Shown: positions 9,363-16,946 of the stretch, one piece after another
Numbering within the stretch: the stretch's first letter is position 1
How the letters are laid out: every line of letters starts with the position of its first letter
From: Candidatus Saccharimonadota bacterium
Lineage (GTDB): Bacteria; Patescibacteriota; Saccharimonadia; Saccharimonadales; JAQGHD01
Length of the DNA stretch: 52,582 nucleotides
Direction of reading: 5' to 3'
Assembly (NCBI GenBank): GCA_028288965.1
Contig: JAQGHD010000027.1
Coordinates: 1 to 52,582 of the forward strand
Notes under the pieces: generated by a model
The model's database searches: none
What the model was told of the DNA's origin: nothing
The model's input: only the letters and a program-made list of their open reading frames with translations
Program-made: the position numbers and the translations under genes

Positions 9363-10151
9363 TTATGGCCCGAGGGCTAGCTGTATAAGCACGCGGTGCG
9401 AACCAAAGAGGAGCCCATCTAGGCTGTCTGTCGAGAACCAACTCACAGCTTCTACTTCTGGGTTTTCCGGGGTTTCGCTATACATTTCAAACTGTTGAGC
9501 CCGAACCGTCTCATTATCTAACTCAAAGCGTACAGCTGTTGTTTCCGGCCAGGCATTGGCCGTAGCCCGTAAATCAGCCACCGGGCCTTGATAAATGGTC
9601 TGAACGCTGGGTTCAAGCTGCTCAAGATCGAGGTTAGCTTCTTCACGCGCTTCACGCATAGCAGCCCGCAGGCCATTCTCCCCAGGATCAACAAAACCAC
9701 CAGGCAAGGCCCACGCCCCAGTATCGCGACGCTTAATAAGTAACACGTGTGGCACCTCAAGATCGCGGCGGATAATAATTGGATCGCCAGTGTAGTTTGG
9801 CCCCCAGTTCCGGTAAAAGCCTTTGCCGGTAACAACTCCAATGTTGGGATTGCTTACCATATCATCGAACCATGGATGCAAGGGGCGCCCATAACTATCA
9901 AAACGTAAGTTATGATTGGCGAGTGCTAATTGTTCGGGAATGGTTGGAACTTGTCCACCCGATGTTTCCCAAAGTCCTAAGGGTAACACGGGCGGCTCCC
10001 AATCTGGCGCGTCTGTGAATAGGCGTTCGTTAAAGCCTGGGTAGCCTGGATAGGTCTTTACCGGGAGGTTTTGAGCTAACAGCTCTAGGTTACTGCGCAT
10101 AAACAGTTCTCGATTTACCGGTAAGTGGTCAGTGTTTTGTAGAGTTTCCAT
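9363..10151 (-). CDS. Nudix hydrolase resembling NUDT9-type ADP-ribose pyrophosphatase
   Basis: GKGFYRNWGPNYTGDPIIIRR and Nudix box GGFVDPGENGLRAAMREAREEANL. Confidence 0.75.
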   Translation of the reverse strand: METLQNTDHLPVNRELFMRSNLELLAQNLPVKTYPGYPGFNERLFTDAPDWEPPVLPLGLWETSGGQVPTIPEQLALANHNLRFDSYGRPLHPWFDDMVSNPNIGVVTGKGFYRNWGPNYTGDPIIIRRDLEVPHVLLIKRRDTGAWALPGGFVDPGENGLRAAMREAREEANLDLEQLEPSVQTIYQGPVADLRATANAWPETTAVRFELDNETVRAQQFEMYSETPENPEVEAVSWFSTDSLDGLLFGSHRVLIQLALGP

Positions 10152-10153
10152 AA

Positions 10154-11431
10154 TTATTGCTCCTTGACGGCAAAGATCTGCTGGTAGCGTTCAACTAATT
10201 CGTTGTTGCCGGTGTGTTTACTGCTATCATCGCTTAATTTTACTGTATCAGCTCCTTTATTTACTTCAGGTACGTAGACATGCGTAGCTTTCATAACTTG
10301 GTTTATGGCTTTCAGCCCCAGATCGTTGCTTAAATCTGTGCCAACACCAAAATTCTTATTAATCTGGTCCTTGAATTCTTGTTTTATGTTGTCAACGCTG
10401 TCCGGCAAATGTAAGCCATCGCTAAAGGTTATGGACTTGTCGAGAGGATTAAGACCCATGTTGGTGTAAAACTTGAGAACTTTTTCGCCGTATTTTATAG
10501 GGTCACCCGAATCCTGGCGGGTAGCCTGGTATTTTTCGGCTCGCTCCAACGTAAAATCTTCAAAAAAGAAATCAGTCCCAAAGGTATCGCTTAAGGCGAT
10601 AGCCAGCTCGTCACCGTAAAAATCATACCAATCGTCTAGCATCTTACCATGAGAGGCGCGAATATCCTCACCCTTGGCATCGGCTATGGCAGCATAGACC
10701 ATAGGGTTCTCGTGCGCAAAGGTTCCGATGGCTTTTAAGCCCAGTTCTTTAGCGAGCGCAACGCAGCTGGTGCCCACAAAGTTCTCTGGACATTCGTTTT
10801 TTAGTCGCTCATCAACGTGACGCTGCCAGCGCAGGCTAAAGCGGCGCCTGGTACCAAAATCAGCTAACTTAACATCCGGATTGGCTTGTAAGTAGGCAAT
10901 TTTTTCACTTAATCGGTGGTCTCCTTCGGCGTATACATCAAAGATGTCTAGACCTTGTGCGCTTACGCAGTTTTCAAAGTACATTTCGCTGACCTGGCTC
11001 ATAACAATGGTTTCCCAGAAGGTGACTAGTGGCCACTTACCGGTAGATTCTATAGCCAAGTCATCGGTGCTCCGGTCGTGTCTGACGGTGATCTCCGGCA
11101 GGGAATTGTGTTGGAGGTAATCCAGATATTCATCAGCAAACATCCGCTCGCCTTTGGCGCTATGCAAACTTCTAAAGTACTCAATTTCTTCCTGGGCAAA
11201 GCCGTTTTGCCGGATGGTTTCCAGACGATCCTGCAAATCCTCAGCTGCCACGTAGTCGGCCAGGCGCTGATTGCCACGATTTTTAAAGGTAAAAGTCACT
11301 TCGGCATCTGGTTGATATTCATGCTGGAATTGGCTCATGGTTGGCTTGTAGTAGTCCAGCCCTGCTGACAGCATAGTTTCTTCTTTAAAGGGACCATATT
11401 CGATGGGGGAGGTCAGTGTTTGGTGTGTCAT
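10154..11431 (-). CDS. pncB: Nicotinate phosphoribosyltransferase
   Basis: MLSAGLDYYKPTMSQFQHEYQPDAEVTFTFKNR; FGTRRRFS; IGTFAHENPM. Confidence 0.9.
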   Translation of the reverse strand: MTHQTLTSPIEYGPFKEETMLSAGLDYYKPTMSQFQHEYQPDAEVTFTFKNRGNQRLADYVAAEDLQDRLETIRQNGFAQEEIEYFRSLHSAKGERMFADEYLDYLQHNSLPEITVRHDRSTDDLAIESTGKWPLVTFWETIVMSQVSEMYFENCVSAQGLDIFDVYAEGDHRLSEKIAYLQANPDVKLADFGTRRRFSLRWQRHVDERLKNECPENFVGTSCVALAKELGLKAIGTFAHENPMVYAAIADAKGEDIRASHGKMLDDWYDFYGDELAIALSDTFGTDFFFEDFTLERAEKYQATRQDSGDPIKYGEKVLKFYTNMGLNPLDKSITFSDGLHLPDSVDNIKQEFKDQINKNFGVGTDLSNDLGLKAINQVMKATHVYVPEVNKGADTVKLSDDSSKHTGNNELVERYQQIFAVKEQ

Positions 11432-11442
11432 TTCATGCCTCC

Positions 11443-12114
11443 TTAGACGGCCAGCGCTTCTAATTTACGTAAGTACTCATCAGTGGTCACAAAGTGTACG
11501 CCGGCAGCTTCTAGCTCATCTATGGCCTTGAGGCCGGTAGGTTGGGCGACTGATTCGGTAGCGTCAACCGCAATGGTGACGTCTAAGCCCAGCTTGGTTC
11601 TTAGATCCAAGGCTGTAGCTTTCACGCAGTAATCCAGTGCTAGGCCCCCCAGCAAAACAGCTCGGGTGCCGCGTTGGCGCAGCCAGTGCTCTAGGTTTTG
11701 ACCGCGTTCGTTGACACCGTTCAGGCCGGTGTAGCTGGTGTCTAGAGCCCCATCAGTTAGCTCTTCTTGACCTTTTTTAAAAGCGACAGCTAGCTTAGGC
11801 ACAATGATTTCTGGGTGCAATTCAGCACCTGGTGTATTGGCACGGCAGTGTGGCGGCCAAGTGGTCATAAAGTTCGGCTCGTTGCCATCCAATGCAAAAT
11901 GCGCGGTGCGCTCTGGGTGCCAGTCTTGGGTAGTAAAGATATCCATACCCCGTAAACTAAAGGCTCCGAGTAATGTATTCAGGTACGGAACAATGTGCTC
12001 ACCTTCCATAATGGGCAGCTCGCCAAAGCCAGGCACGTCTAAACGTTCGCCTTCACTGGCGGGCATAAAGCCGCGCTGAGCATCGATAATTCCTAGTGCG
12101 GTTGGGTGGTTCAT
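11443..12114 (-). CDS. pncA: Nicotinamidase (isochorismatase-fold)
   Basis: GIIDAQRGFMP, TTQDWHPERTAHFA and GGLALDYCVKATALD; strong SD (AAGGAG). Confidence 0.88.
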   Translation of the reverse strand: MNHPTALGIIDAQRGFMPASEGERLDVPGFGELPIMEGEHIVPYLNTLLGAFSLRGMDIFTTQDWHPERTAHFALDGNEPNFMTTWPPHCRANTPGAELHPEIIVPKLAVAFKKGQEELTDGALDTSYTGLNGVNERGQNLEHWLRQRGTRAVLLGGLALDYCVKATALDLRTKLGLDVTIAVDATESVAQPTGLKAIDELEAAGVHFVTTDEYLRKLEALAV

Positions 12115-12139
12115 GATTGTCTCCTTCTCTGTTACATAG

Positions 12140-12160
12140 TAAGTGTAGAATCAACACTAT
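12140..12160. promoter_or_regulatory. Candidate NrtR operator
   Basis: TAAGTGT-AGAATCA-ACACTAT inverted repeat in the pncA/ADP-ribosylglycohydrolase divergent intergenic region. Confidence 0.6.
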
Positions 12161-12181
12161 TTAGTGTTAGTTACAGACTAC
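12161..12181. promoter_or_regulatory. Degenerate candidate NrtR operator
   Basis: TTAGTGT-TAGTTAC-AGACTAC, exactly 21 bp from the previous site. Confidence 0.4.
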
Positions 12182-12188
12182 TCCATAG

Positions 12189-12209
12189 TTAGTGTCTTGT
12201 CAACACTTA
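12189..12209. promoter_or_regulatory. Candidate NrtR operator
   Basis: TTAGTGT-CTTGTCA-ACACTTA. Confidence 0.6.
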
Positions 12210-12263
12210 TTTTATTTGATTTAATGTTGTAAGGAGTAATAAACTTAATGAAAGGGGGGGATC

Positions 12264-13223
12264 ATGGCTATAGATAAGCTAGGAGCAGTAGGAGAAAATT
12301 TATTAGTGGCTGTTGGCTACGGTGACTCAGCTGGCTTGCCGGCAGAAACACTAACGCCGGAGCAAATCCAGGATAAGTTTGGACGGCTGAGTGGGCTTAT
12401 TCCGATTGATAATAAATTTATGGGTAAACACCCAATTGGTAGATGGAGCGATGATACAAAGCTGTCATTGGCCATAGCCGAAGCCTTAATAGACAGCGAA
12501 GGTTTTAACATGAAGGCAATTGCCACAAACCATGTCGGGGCATTGCGCGACCCCGTCAATCGGGGCTGGGGTAGCAGTACTCGTAAAAGCATTAAGCGGT
12601 TGCGTAAAGACGGCAGCTGGCGTACTAGTGGAAGCCAGGAAGGTGAGGGTAACGGGGTGCTTATGAAGTTGAGCCCCTTGGCGCTCTGGCAGACAGTAAA
12701 ACAACCCGTCGCCGCTGATAATCAAGTCGAAGCCATAGCCCGCATGACGCATGCCAATACACTCAGTGTAGTCACGGCTCTGGTTCACAGAGATATTTTA
12801 GGAGCCTTATTGATGGGTTATTTAGAGCCGGCAGATGTGCCCCAAGCTGGCGCCGCGCAGGCCGAAATGTACGAGCAGCACTTAGGTGAACCCAGCCAGG
12901 TAACGTCTGGACTGCTTGGCCGGCTGGCCTTAGACAGGCGTATTACAGACAGGACTATTGCTGATCTAACGCCAAAGGCCGGTTTTTGGTCACCAGAGAC
13001 GCTGGTTATGGCTTACGGAGCCTTTGCCCGCACCCCACACTACCCAGATAACATCTATGACGTGATTAATTTAGGGGGCGATACCGATAGTACTGGTTCA
13101 ATTGTAGGAGCTATGTCGGCCATGCACCAAGGTGATCTAGAACATCCAGCCGATGTGGCTCAACTTGAGCAAGTAGACTACTTACGCAAAGTCGGCCAGG
13201 AACTAGTAGCCATGTTGAGCTGA
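12264..13223 (+). CDS. ADP-ribosylglycohydrolase family protein
   Basis: GYGDSAGLPAE, IGRWSDDTKLSLAIAEALI and NLGGDTDSTGSIVGAM metal-binding motifs. Confidence 0.85.
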   Translation: MAIDKLGAVGENLLVAVGYGDSAGLPAETLTPEQIQDKFGRLSGLIPIDNKFMGKHPIGRWSDDTKLSLAIAEALIDSEGFNMKAIATNHVGALRDPVNRGWGSSTRKSIKRLRKDGSWRTSGSQEGEGNGVLMKLSPLALWQTVKQPVAADNQVEAIARMTHANTLSVVTALVHRDILGALLMGYLEPADVPQAGAAQAEMYEQHLGEPSQVTSGLLGRLALDRRITDRTIADLTPKAGFWSPETLVMAYGAFARTPHYPDNIYDVINLGGDTDSTGSIVGAMSAMHQGDLEHPADVAQLEQVDYLRKVGQELVAMLS

Positions 13224-13226
13224 GTT

Positions 13227-13529
13227 TTACTGCTCCAAACGAGTTTCAATTTCAAAAAAGCTAGTAATTTCACCAACAGTTTTGCCACATGGCAGGACAT
13301 CAACGGTGTGATAATCATGAGCGCCACTAAGCACAAAGTGCAGCCAATCTTCATCTGGCTCCCCAAATGATAGAACCTGCACGCCGCTTTCATTAGTAAA
13401 TCCTTCGGTATCAACCAGTTCATGCCGTGCTGCAATAACTCCACCTAACACAGCGCGCAATACACTGCTGCATGCACTCTGGCATCTGTCCTGCTCTTGG
13501 CAGGTCGGACGCAAATATTCACTACCCAT
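13227..13529 (-). CDS. Hypothetical protein
   Basis: 100-aa ORF filling a gap between conserved genes; no recognised motif. Confidence 0.45.
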   Translation of the reverse strand: MGSEYLRPTCQEQDRCQSACSSVLRAVLGGVIAARHELVDTEGFTNESGVQVLSFGEPDEDWLHFVLSGAHDYHTVDVLPCGKTVGEITSFFEIETRLEQ

Positions 13530-13613
13530 AGCTCACTCCCTTTTAGCTTGTACTGACCAATTTTAGTCTCGTGCTTGCAGCCCAGATAGGAAAAAATTCG
13601 CCCTCACGAGCGG

Positions 13614-14315
13614 CTAATCAAAACTGCGTGAGAGCGTTTCTAGGTGCTGTTTGTTGAACTTGTAGAGCTTAGCAGGACGGTGAGCACCTTCACGGAATAA
13701 ATCACCGGTGGGCGCAATGAGATTGAGGTCTAAGAATTTCTTTCGGAAATTGCGTTTATCTAGTTCGCGGCCAAAAACGGCTTCGTAGGCTTTTTGCAGT
13801 TGGGTAAGGGTAAAGAACTTGGGCAACAGCGCGTAGATGGCGTTGGTATAGGTGATTTTGGCACTGAGGCGATCATGGGCGTACTTGATAATGTCGGCAT
13901 GATCATATGCCAAGTTTTTAGGGAGATGGCTGATTGGGAAGAATTGCGGATTTTGGGTGGTTTTGCTGGTTTTTGGGGCTAAATTGTGGCCCAAACAAGT
14001 ATAGGTCACCGAAACAGCATGACCGCGAGGGTCACGGGCCACCGTGTCAAAGGTATACAGTTGCTCCACTAGGGCAAAGTCCTTGACCGAAAAGCCGGCT
14101 TTGGCTCGCAAAATACGATTAAGAGCCTGCGTGGTGGTTTCGCCTTGGGCGTTGTAACCGCCGGGTAGGGCCCAATAATCCTTAAAGGGCTCTTCTGGCC
14201 GACGGATTAAAAGCACATTTAATTGGTTGTTGATAAGCTGCAGAACTACCCCGTCAACTGTCAGGATGGGGGGTACGTATTCTCCGCTATATTTGGCAGT
14301 CATAATGTCTATCAT
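13614..14315 (-). CDS. nrtR: NrtR-like transcriptional regulator (Nudix-like domain plus C-terminal winged helix)
   Basis: VDGVVLQLINNQLNVLLIRRPEEPFKDYWALPGGY with degenerate Nudix box, then FTLTQLQKAYEAVFGRELDKRNFRKKFL wHTH; adjacent to nadE. Confidence 0.85.
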   Translation of the reverse strand: MIDIMTAKYSGEYVPPILTVDGVVLQLINNQLNVLLIRRPEEPFKDYWALPGGYNAQGETTTQALNRILRAKAGFSVKDFALVEQLYTFDTVARDPRGHAVSVTYTCLGHNLAPKTSKTTQNPQFFPISHLPKNLAYDHADIIKYAHDRLSAKITYTNAIYALLPKFFTLTQLQKAYEAVFGRELDKRNFRKKFLDLNLIAPTGDLFREGAHRPAKLYKFNKQHLETLSRSFD

Positions 14316-14318
14316 ACA

Positions 14319-16244
14319 CTATTCCCAAATAGCGGTATTATACAGATCAGAAGGCATGCGCCAATCGCCCCGCGGGCTGAGCGCCACACTGCCAACTTTG
14401 GCACCATCGGGCAGGCTTGAGCGCTTAAATTGACTGAAGGCAAAGCGCTTATAAAATACCATTAACCACTTATTGATTTCCTCTGGCTGGTACACTCCTT
14501 CAAAGGCTTGGTTGGCCAAAAAACGTATTTTAGCCGGCTCATCGCCCCAACGAATAAGATAGTACAAAAAAAAGTCGTGCAGCTCGTACGGGCCAATAAT
14601 ATCCTCAGTTTTTTGATCAATCTCGCCTTTGGCTGCCCGGGTAAGTTCCGGTGAAACGGGTGTATCGAGTATATCGAGCAGTATGTCTCGGGCTTCGGCA
14701 CCAGCTTGATTATCGGTAATATGCCGGACCAAGTGCCGGACCAGTGTTTTAGGCACCCCGGCATTCACGTGGTAGTGACTCATATGGTCGGCGTTAAAGG
14801 TACACCAGCCCAGCGCAATTTCGCTTAAATCACCAGTCCCCAAGTTGATCCCTTGCAGCTGGTTGCCCTTGTTAAAGAGAATTTCGGTTCGTATGCGGGC
14901 CTGGACGTTTTCGTAGGTAACATCTTGGGTTTGGCCATCATGACCAATGGCCTTGTGCATCTGATGAGCCAGTTGATCGATAGGCACGACTTGGTTTGGG
15001 ACGTTGTACAGCTGGGCTAACTTTACCGCGTTATTTTGGGTACGGTCAGAGCTAGCCACACCTGGCATGGTGTAGGTGCGGATTAAGTCTTTGGGTGGCA
15101 CGCCGATGATTTCTGCTGAACGACAGGCGACTAAAAAGGCCAAAGTAGAATCCAGCCCACCGGACAAACCAAGATGTACATACGGCGTTTTGGTGGCTTG
15201 TAGCCGCCCGGCCAAGCCATGAGCTTGAATGTCGATAATCGATTGTAAACGCTCGGCGCGCTCGGTTTCATTTTCCCAGGTGGGCAAGAAGGGGTGGGGA
15301 TTAATATGAGGACTTGGCACAAACTCAGGGGTGCCTACAACCGTTTTGACCACTTGCCAGCCAACTTTATTTACAAAGTTAGTATCGCGCAGCCGATCAT
15401 GTTTTAGGTGGTCAATATCTATGTCTGCTACTCGCAGCCGCTCATCTTTTGTAAATGGTTTACGTTCGGCTAGTAGGCGGCCATTTTCGGCAATTAACTG
15501 GTGCCCACCCATAACCACGTCCATGGTTGATTCGGTCCAATCACTGCCAGCGTAGACGTAGCCGGCCATAAGCTTGGCGGATTGCATAGCCACCAATTGG
15601 CGACGGTAGGCGGCTTTGCCAACCAGCTCGGGTGAGGCTGATAAATTAGCAATTACTAACGCTCCGTGCTGGGCTTGCTGGATGCTGGGGGCTTCGGCTA
15701 CCCAGAGGTCCTCACAGGTTTCGACGCCAATTTTTGCGCCACCAATGTCAAATAGCAATTCCGTGCCAAAGGGCACGTCTTGCTGGCCAACCCTCACCGC
15801 GGTATTAGGCTGCTGCCAGGTTTGGTACCACCGCTTTTCGTAAAATTCACCATAGGTAGGTAGGTTTTGCTTTGGCACAAGGCCTTTTATGTCGCCATCG
15901 GCTAGCACGGCACTACAGTTGTATAATGCGTTGTCCACCTGCAGAGGCAAGCCAACTACCATGGTCGTTTCGCTACCCCGTGTTTGTTCGGCCAACTGTT
16001 GCAGCCCTGTGCGGGCTTGCTTAAGCAAGCTTTGTTGCTGTACAAGATCACCAATGGAATAGCCGGTCAGACTCAGCTCCGGAAAGACTACCAGGGCCAC
16101 GCCTTGAGCGGTAGCCTCTTTATACAACTCGGTGATTCGAGTAGTGTTAGTGGCTACGTCGGCGATGTTAACTTCAGGGCAGGCAGTAGCCACCCGCAGA
16201 TAACTTTCATATGGCTGGAATTCCAATTGTGATAGCGTTTCCAT
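14319..16244 (-). CDS. nadE: Glutamine-dependent NAD+ synthetase (nitrilase plus synthetase domains)
   Basis: VVFPELSLTGYSIGDL, GVETCEDLWV, HLGLSGGLDSTLAFLVA and GTGDLSEIALGWCTFNADHMSHYHVNAGVPKTLV. Confidence 0.95.
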   Translation of the reverse strand: METLSQLEFQPYESYLRVATACPEVNIADVATNTTRITELYKEATAQGVALVVFPELSLTGYSIGDLVQQQSLLKQARTGLQQLAEQTRGSETTMVVGLPLQVDNALYNCSAVLADGDIKGLVPKQNLPTYGEFYEKRWYQTWQQPNTAVRVGQQDVPFGTELLFDIGGAKIGVETCEDLWVAEAPSIQQAQHGALVIANLSASPELVGKAAYRRQLVAMQSAKLMAGYVYAGSDWTESTMDVVMGGHQLIAENGRLLAERKPFTKDERLRVADIDIDHLKHDRLRDTNFVNKVGWQVVKTVVGTPEFVPSPHINPHPFLPTWENETERAERLQSIIDIQAHGLAGRLQATKTPYVHLGLSGGLDSTLAFLVACRSAEIIGVPPKDLIRTYTMPGVASSDRTQNNAVKLAQLYNVPNQVVPIDQLAHQMHKAIGHDGQTQDVTYENVQARIRTEILFNKGNQLQGINLGTGDLSEIALGWCTFNADHMSHYHVNAGVPKTLVRHLVRHITDNQAGAEARDILLDILDTPVSPELTRAAKGEIDQKTEDIIGPYELHDFFLYYLIRWGDEPAKIRFLANQAFEGVYQPEEINKWLMVFYKRFAFSQFKRSSLPDGAKVGSVALSPRGDWRMPSDLYNTAIWE

Positions 16245-16255
16245 GATAGTTCTCC

Positions 16256-16276
16256 TTAGTGTAAAAAATACATTTA
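16256..16276. promoter_or_regulatory. Candidate NrtR operator upstream of nadE-nrtR
   Basis: TTAGTGT-AAAAAAT-ACATTTA (second half-site 5/7). Confidence 0.45.
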
Positions 16277-16303
16277 CTTATTCTAAAGTAGCAGGTACAA
16301 TAA

Positions 16304-16324
16304 TTAGTGTCAATACCACACTAA
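16304..16324. promoter_or_regulatory. Candidate NrtR operator upstream of nadD
   Basis: Perfect inverted repeat TTAGTGT-CAATACC-ACACTAA just downstream of TACAAT -10. Confidence 0.7.
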
Positions 16325-16337
16325 CAGGAGATTTGAC

Positions 16338-16946
16338 ATGGAAATAGCAATATTTGGCGGCAGTTTCAACCCACCGACTCGAGCCCACGAGGCCGGTGTT
16401 CAGGCCTGTCTTGATCGGCAGGATATTGATGAGGTGTGGCTGATGCCATCTGGCTATCGGGCTGATAAGCCAGGCTTAGTCGATGATCAAGCGCGGCTGG
16501 AAATGCTACAAATTGTTAAGCGCCAGGAGTTTTATGATAATCCTCGGGTAGTCATCTCGGACTTTGAGCTTAGCCTGCCGCGGCCAACCCAAACTTATAA
16601 AACCATGGGGGCGCTGGCCAGGGCCTACCCTGAGCATAGATTTTGGTTTGTCAGTGGGGCTGATACCTATGCCACCATGCAAAACTGGGAAGGTGGCCAC
16701 CAACTAAAGGCCAGCTTGCCTATGTTGCTCATCCCTCGCATTGGTTATGAGTTACCCGAGCCGACCCAGCAGTTGCGCCAACTGGAAGTACTAGAAGATA
16801 TGGTCGATGGCATATCCTCTAGTCAAGTGCGTGAGCGTTTGGCCTTAGGCGGCCCCATTGAGTTCTTGGTCTGCGACGCCATAGCGCGCTACATTGCTGA
16901 AAAAGGTTTATACCTAGCCAAAGGCTCAAAATATGTAAGCATTTAG
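16338..16946 (+). CDS. nadD: Nicotinate-nucleotide adenylyltransferase
   Basis: IFGGSFNPPTRAHEAGVQ and DGISSSQVRERLALGGPIEFLVCDAIARYI. Confidence 0.9.
   Translation: MEIAIFGGSFNPPTRAHEAGVQACLDRQDIDEVWLMPSGYRADKPGLVDDQARLEMLQIVKRQEFYDNPRVVISDFELSLPRPTQTYKTMGALARAYPEHRFWFVSGADTYATMQNWEGGHQLKASLPMLLIPRIGYELPEPTQQLRQLEVLEDMVDGISSSQVRERLALGGPIEFLVCDAIARYIAEKGLYLAKGSKYVSI

Follow-up and report, generated by a model that had tools for sequence, protein, structure and literature searches.

A predicted NrtR-controlled NAD-recycling regulon with a putative ADP-ribose-cleaving Nudix enzyme in Saccharibacteria

NAD salvage genes and their regulator

Here, we describe an NAD salvage cluster of a tiny, probably host-dependent bacterium. 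Its genome (916 kb, completeness 94%) groups with Saccharibacteria. The cluster occupies positions 9363-16946 of the window, i.e., the whole analysed stretch of 52,582 nucleotides, and comprises eight open reading frames (ORFs), all at the positions given by a first-pass annotation. A related-locus search returned a single saccharibacterial relative, a Candidatus Saccharibacteria MAG whose NrtR is 69% identical. The genes form two divergent arrangements. Around 16245-16337, nadE (14319-16244) and nrtR (13614-14315) lie 3 bp apart on the minus strand and nadD (16338-16946) is on the plus strand; the place of nrtR as second gene of a nadE-nrtR operon was absent from the first-pass annotation. 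Around 12115-12263, pncA (11443-12114), pncB (10154-11431) and a gene for a NUDT9-type Nudix hydrolase, predicted to be an ADP-ribose pyrophosphatase (9363-10151), follow each other on the minus strand with spacings of 2-11 bp, and draG (12264-13223), encoding a DraG/ARH-family ADP-ribosylhydrolase, is on the plus strand.

Comparison with Pfam, NCBIfam and solved structures bore out the reading of this locus as a PncA/PncB/NadE/NadD cluster with an NrtR-like protein, and all four enzymes for salvage from nicotinamide to NAD are encoded. Nicotinate phosphoribosyltransferase PncB (TIGR01514, 278 bits versus a cut-off of 269.6), nicotinate-nucleotide adenylyltransferase NadD (TIGR00482, 117 versus 112.5 bits) and glutamine-dependent NAD synthase NadE (NF002730, 750 versus 473 bits) exceeded their family cut-offs. 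Nicotinamidase PncA (PF00857) scored under its equivalog cut-off, and its best solved relative is the PncA pyrazinamidase/nicotinamidase 3pl1 (E 3e-25). The regulator combines an N-terminal Nudix domain (PF00293) with a C-terminal NrtR winged helix (PF21906), both above cut-offs, the latter with 87 bits versus 27. The remaining ORF (13227-13529, minus strand; 100 aa), absent from the first-pass reading of the cluster, sits between draG, towards which it is transcribed, and nrtR, which lies upstream of it. It had no Pfam or NCBIfam match and no tblastn match in the relatives' loci; it is an orphan or not coding.

Candidate operators and DNA-reading residues of NrtR

Both divergent intergenic regions, between nadE and nadD and between pncA and draG, contain the palindrome TTAGTGT-N7-ACACTAA, which was first spotted by eye and had been missed in the first-pass annotation. 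Motif search gave four candidate NrtR operators: a perfect palindrome, TTAGTGT-CAATACC-ACACTAA (16304-16324), and a site with two mismatches (16256-16276) between nadE and nadD, and a pair between pncA and draG, of which the pncA-proximal member (12140-12160) has two mismatches and the other (12189-12209) one. A middle match at 12161-12181 is probably a by-product of its flanking sites. The 12189-12209 site covers -35-like hexamers of both pncA (TTGACA, minus strand) and draG (TTGTCA, plus strand), which fits the expectation for a shared repressor site. By consensus, promoter elements are weak; a scan gave one 9/12 match at nadD and no match at pncA/draG.

At up to two mismatches, the genome holds six matches, five of them within the two intergenic regions (242 bp in total). 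Random sequence with the dinucleotide make-up of the window yields about 1-4 matches per whole genome, so that the clustering of the sites, not their number, is the operator signal. The sixth site (L073, G000:C6:34182), which is within this chance expectation, precedes a histidine phosphatase gene whose product is distantly similar (28%) to the one preceded by NrtR sites in nine relatives' loci.

Among 393 genomes of the class, 27 carry a true NrtR (match with E <1e-50). The motif, at no more than one mismatch, occurs in 25 of these 27 (85 sites) versus 33 of the other 366 genomes (34 sites; Fisher p 2e-21), and on this co-occurrence we rejected a chance motif. These and the other co-occurrence counts ignore phylogeny, and the NrtR carriers span at least eight families. 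Around nrtR in the relatives, most sites come in pairs with a spacing of 39-50 bp; they precede pncA (18 loci), nadD (10), either type of nadE (13), pnuC (4), a histidine phosphatase gene (9) and nrtR itself (7).

The protein side of this predicted interaction can be compared with the crystal structure of the NrtR-family regulator BtAraR in complex with its operator GTGT-N7-ACAC, in which Lys179, Asn181, Lys184 and Arg205 contact bases, Arg180 intercalates, and Asp178 and Arg183 make van der Waals contacts (PMC4666351). The window NrtR has the corresponding residues D186, K187, R188, N189, R191, K192 and R213, each shared by 18 or 19 of the 19 proteins in the alignment. Since this match was noticed after the operator had been called, it lends the operator independent support. 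The main DNA-reading residues and the GTGT-N7-ACAC operator core are common to both systems, whereas BtAraR responds to arabinose, targets sugar genes, differs in its pocket residues and has Lys204 where the window NrtR has His. Taken together, the sites and the residues that would read them support the view that NrtR represses this cluster via palindromic operators at the NAD genes.

Some relatives depart from this layout. In three genomes (G244, G327 and G185; loci L055, L056 and L062), nrtR has metRS and tatD as its neighbours, and its surroundings lack NAD salvage genes; operator-like sites precede the next small ORF, G327 and G185 share a homologous 55-59-aa ORF (E 4e-12), and genome-wide searches gave no convincing match to an NAD synthase. 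The same negative result was obtained for G111 (L044; 98% complete, single contig), which has pncA, pncB and nadD with nrtR. Genome G192 (L064) contains 18 operator matches at no more than one mismatch, some preceding a PRPP-synthetase-like gene beside a NAPRTase-family gene, others the gene of an isochorismatase-like protein, behind which PP2C and kinase genes lie.

Predicted ADP-ribose enzymes and the likely effector of NrtR

The product of draG had been annotated as an ADP-ribosylglycohydrolase, and this family assignment holds: it matches PF03747 with 146 bits, its AlphaFold model (pLDDT 81) has the ADP_ribosyl_GH fold of Lmo0067, MJ1187, DraG and ARH3, and the metal-site motifs SDDT and GGD.DS are intact and invariant in five relatives. 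DraG is thus likely to free ADP-ribose from some modified molecule. Close homologues (E <1e-25) occur in six of the 393 genomes, five among the 27 NrtR carriers versus one among the other 366 (p 6e-6). In all five NrtR carriers draG lies inside the nrtR cluster, where it either shares operators directly with pncA or pnuC or follows a histidine phosphatase gene that shares them; DraG is absent from the other 22. It is plausible that DraG makes the effector of NrtR, as an optional part of the system.

DraG could be an orphan antidote that strips from cell components the ADP-ribose attached by foreign transferases (toxins of phages or neighbouring cells) and that shares the operator so that the freed ADP-ribose would boost both the antidote and NAD synthesis. 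Consistent with this, its top structural match belongs to a toxin-immunity pair of Listeria whose toxin is an ADP-ribosyltransferase, and family searches of the window genome found no sirtuin (SIR2), Macro or DarT; this search, however, covered only those three families. Systems composed of an ADP-ribosylhydrolase, a Nudix regulator and a phosphatase have been predicted (PMC9503650), and relatives of the present cluster have a histidine phosphatase gene in place of draG or next to it. However, none of the cluster's eight ORFs, one of which has no family match, was identified as a chaperone or nuclease gene of the kind typical of these anti-phage systems, and the partners of draG are NAD salvage genes. 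We regard a role as antidote as a serious possibility that falls short of being probable.

Behind the same operators, the slot divergent from pncA looks like a module of variable content. In some relatives (L043 8397-9254, L053 3844-4884, L059, L060 and L063) its gene encodes a radical SAM protein or one that contains a methyltransferase and begins with an NMNAT-like part.

The 262-aa Nudix protein had been described as NUDT9-like from its WGPN...DPI and REAREEA motifs. Both are present, the protein matches PF00293, and its best solved relative is indeed the NUDT9-type ADP-ribose pyrophosphatase 1q33 (E 2.8e-14; 4.8e-28 with a family profile). NUDT9 and TRPM2 (NUDT9-H) proteins fill the top ten structure matches, the Nudix box REAREE is intact, and G117, N119, D123, R195 and W201 are invariant in 14 aligned proteins; the AlphaFold model is poor (pLDDT 53.5) and was set aside. 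With NUDT9 and the NUDT9-H domain of TRPM2, the system shares the GPN...D, Nudix-box and DpR.T..aW.eT motifs and the pairing of a live enzyme box with a dead RIL box in a sensor. It differs in that the window enzyme is bacterial, its N-terminal part is unlike theirs, and in relatives an APH-like kinase is often joined to it or encoded next door. The fusions, in either order, lie in the NAD operon (L044 13218-14654, L047, L049, L051, L059, L060 and L063), the two genes are adjacent but split in L045 and L048, and a search of the window's own genome gave no match to APH.

Comparison of synteny showed that the NUDT9-like gene closes the pncA-pncB operon in many relatives, while DraG is a minority partner. 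A NUDT9-like enzyme is found in 17 of the 27 NrtR genomes versus 6 of the other 366 (p 3e-18). That the regulon includes a gene whose product should cleave, and so destroy, the presumed effector ADP-ribose is well supported by these sequence comparisons. Alternatively, the cluster could be an ordinary NrtR salvage regulon in which the Nudix protein does housekeeping, DraG does not feed the signal and any feedback is negligible. Control of salvage genes by NrtR is well established, and the core exists without the NUDT9-like enzyme in 10 of the 27 carriers and without DraG in 22. A housekeeping enzyme, however, need not track NrtR as strongly as this one does, nor close an operator-driven pncA-pncB operon in so many relatives; we consider this reading possible, though on the doubtful side.

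Both enzymes would matter to the regulator if NrtR binds ADP-ribose, a known anti-repressor in NrtR regulons (PMC6800001, PMC12735969). In SoNrtR, Arg41, Asn43, Lys76 and Arg98 contact ADP-ribose, whereas AraR has Phe, Leu and Gly instead of the last three, and its nucleotide site is occupied (PMC4666351). Of these, Arg41 is kept as R39 in the window NrtR (19/19 aligned proteins) and Arg98 as R97 (18/19; AraR Gly89). K72 (19/19) aligns with AraR Leu67, the structural place of SoNrtR Lys76, a correspondence that depends on the alignment, and Asn43 is not conserved. Arginine and lysine instead of AraR Gly89 and Leu67 are expected if the phosphate site is open. These pocket residues favour ADP-ribose over a sugar as the likelier effector and, together with gene content, led us to reject a sugar regulator. 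That NrtR senses another ligand (sugar, NAD or another nucleotide), so that neither enzyme acts on the effector, is improbable: the arabinose-responsive AraR scores highest among its solved relatives, its relatives may respond to arabinose or NAD and Corynebacterium NdnR does respond to NAD (PMC4666351), but the pocket residues are those expected of an open phosphate site and the recurrent regulated genes belong to NAD metabolism.

The Nudix box of NrtR reads RILRAK instead of REUXEE, and its first Glu is absent in 19/19 aligned proteins. RIL-type boxes are inactive in human TRPM2 (RILRQE) and mutant NUDT9 (RILGEE) (PMC6461439); hence NrtR should bind ADP-ribose and not cleave it, and we rejected NrtR itself as an ADP-ribose hydrolase.

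Proposed circuit and its relation to known systems

The analysis shows by computation what the genes are, where operators lie, which DNA-reading and ligand residues are conserved and what co-occurs; from this we infer binding, ligand, enzyme activities and the sign and strength of feedback. We consider it probable that the cluster is an NrtR-controlled NAD-recycling regulon with induction by ADP-ribose, removal of the inducer by the Nudix enzyme and optional input from DraG. Briefly, without ADP-ribose an NrtR dimer would sit on the paired TTAGTGT-N7-ACACTAA operators that bracket the two divergent promoter regions and repress nadE-nrtR and nadD on one side, and pncA-pncB-NUDT and draG on the other. 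Faster NAD breakdown would raise ADP-ribose, and its binding in the Nudix pocket of NrtR, which should be without catalytic activity, would release the DNA. Derepressed PncA, PncB, NadD and NadE could then rebuild NAD from nicotinamide, while the NUDT9-type enzyme would convert ADP-ribose to AMP and ribose-5-phosphate and so clear the inducer (negative feedback); ribose-5-phosphate could conceivably return its pentose to PRPP for PncB, and the gene pair behind such operators in G192 includes a PRPP-synthetase-like gene. Derepression would also produce more NrtR (autoregulation). Where present, DraG would take ADP-ribose off modified molecules and supply extra inducer (positive feedback). The feedback circuit proposed in the first-pass annotation is thereby upheld in part: NrtR control of the cluster, ADP-ribose as likelier effector and an ADP-ribose-cleaving gene in the regulon are supported, whereas DraG as the source of the effector is weakened by its presence in only 5 of the 27 NrtR genomes, the lack of SIR2, Macro and DarT matches and its structural match to a toxin-immunity protein.

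Each element has a known relative. As far as citing papers describe their content, NrtR regulons of NAD metabolism are known from Shewanella, Pseudomonas, Streptococcus and Mycobacterium, and P. aeruginosa has the same salvage set pncA-pncB-nadE-nadD (PMC6363681). The present system shares with NrtR regulons the Nudix and winged-helix repressor, the degenerate Nudix box and a palindromic operator with a 7-bp centre (PMC6800001). Compared with these accounts, it differs in its AraR-like operator TTAGTGT-N7-ACACTAA, in the NUDT9-type hydrolase within an operon, in the DraG or histidine phosphatase that shares operators in the window or in relatives, and in its saccharibacterial lineage. Positive feedback by an ADP-ribosylhydrolase and a Nudix regulator with ADP-ribose induction has already been proposed for ARG-centred systems whose regulators are of the Nudix or WYL type (PMC9503650, section 3.8). 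As in these systems, an ADP-ribosylhydrolase stands beside a Nudix-domain repressor without a coupled transferase, phosphatases are nearby in relatives, and ADP-ribose is the proposed inducer. Unlike in these systems, the hydrolase is optional and has NAD salvage genes and a predicted ADP-ribose-cleaving enzyme as its partners. What looks new is the combination, along with the operator and the lineage, and a limited literature search found no paper on NrtR in Saccharibacteria.

To our knowledge, few regulators have been described in Saccharibacteria. In the present case, sequences from many species are enough to recognize one regulator together with its operator and targets, and the model can be tested with purified parts. 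As a tentative generalization, which we hold with more doubt than conviction, ADP-ribose might serve Saccharibacteria as a general signal that NAD is being consumed, with the NUDT9-type enzyme as built-in eraser and interchangeable modules (DraG, histidine phosphatase, radical SAM, NMNAT-like) in the slot that shares the pncA operators, forming a self-resetting circuit for NAD recycling and defence. The eraser in the regulon offers a concrete model for switching off an ADP-ribose signal and ties NAD salvage to the handling of ADP-ribosylation; with a predicted signal-destroying and possibly a signal-releasing enzyme under the same control, the circuit may both reset and amplify itself.
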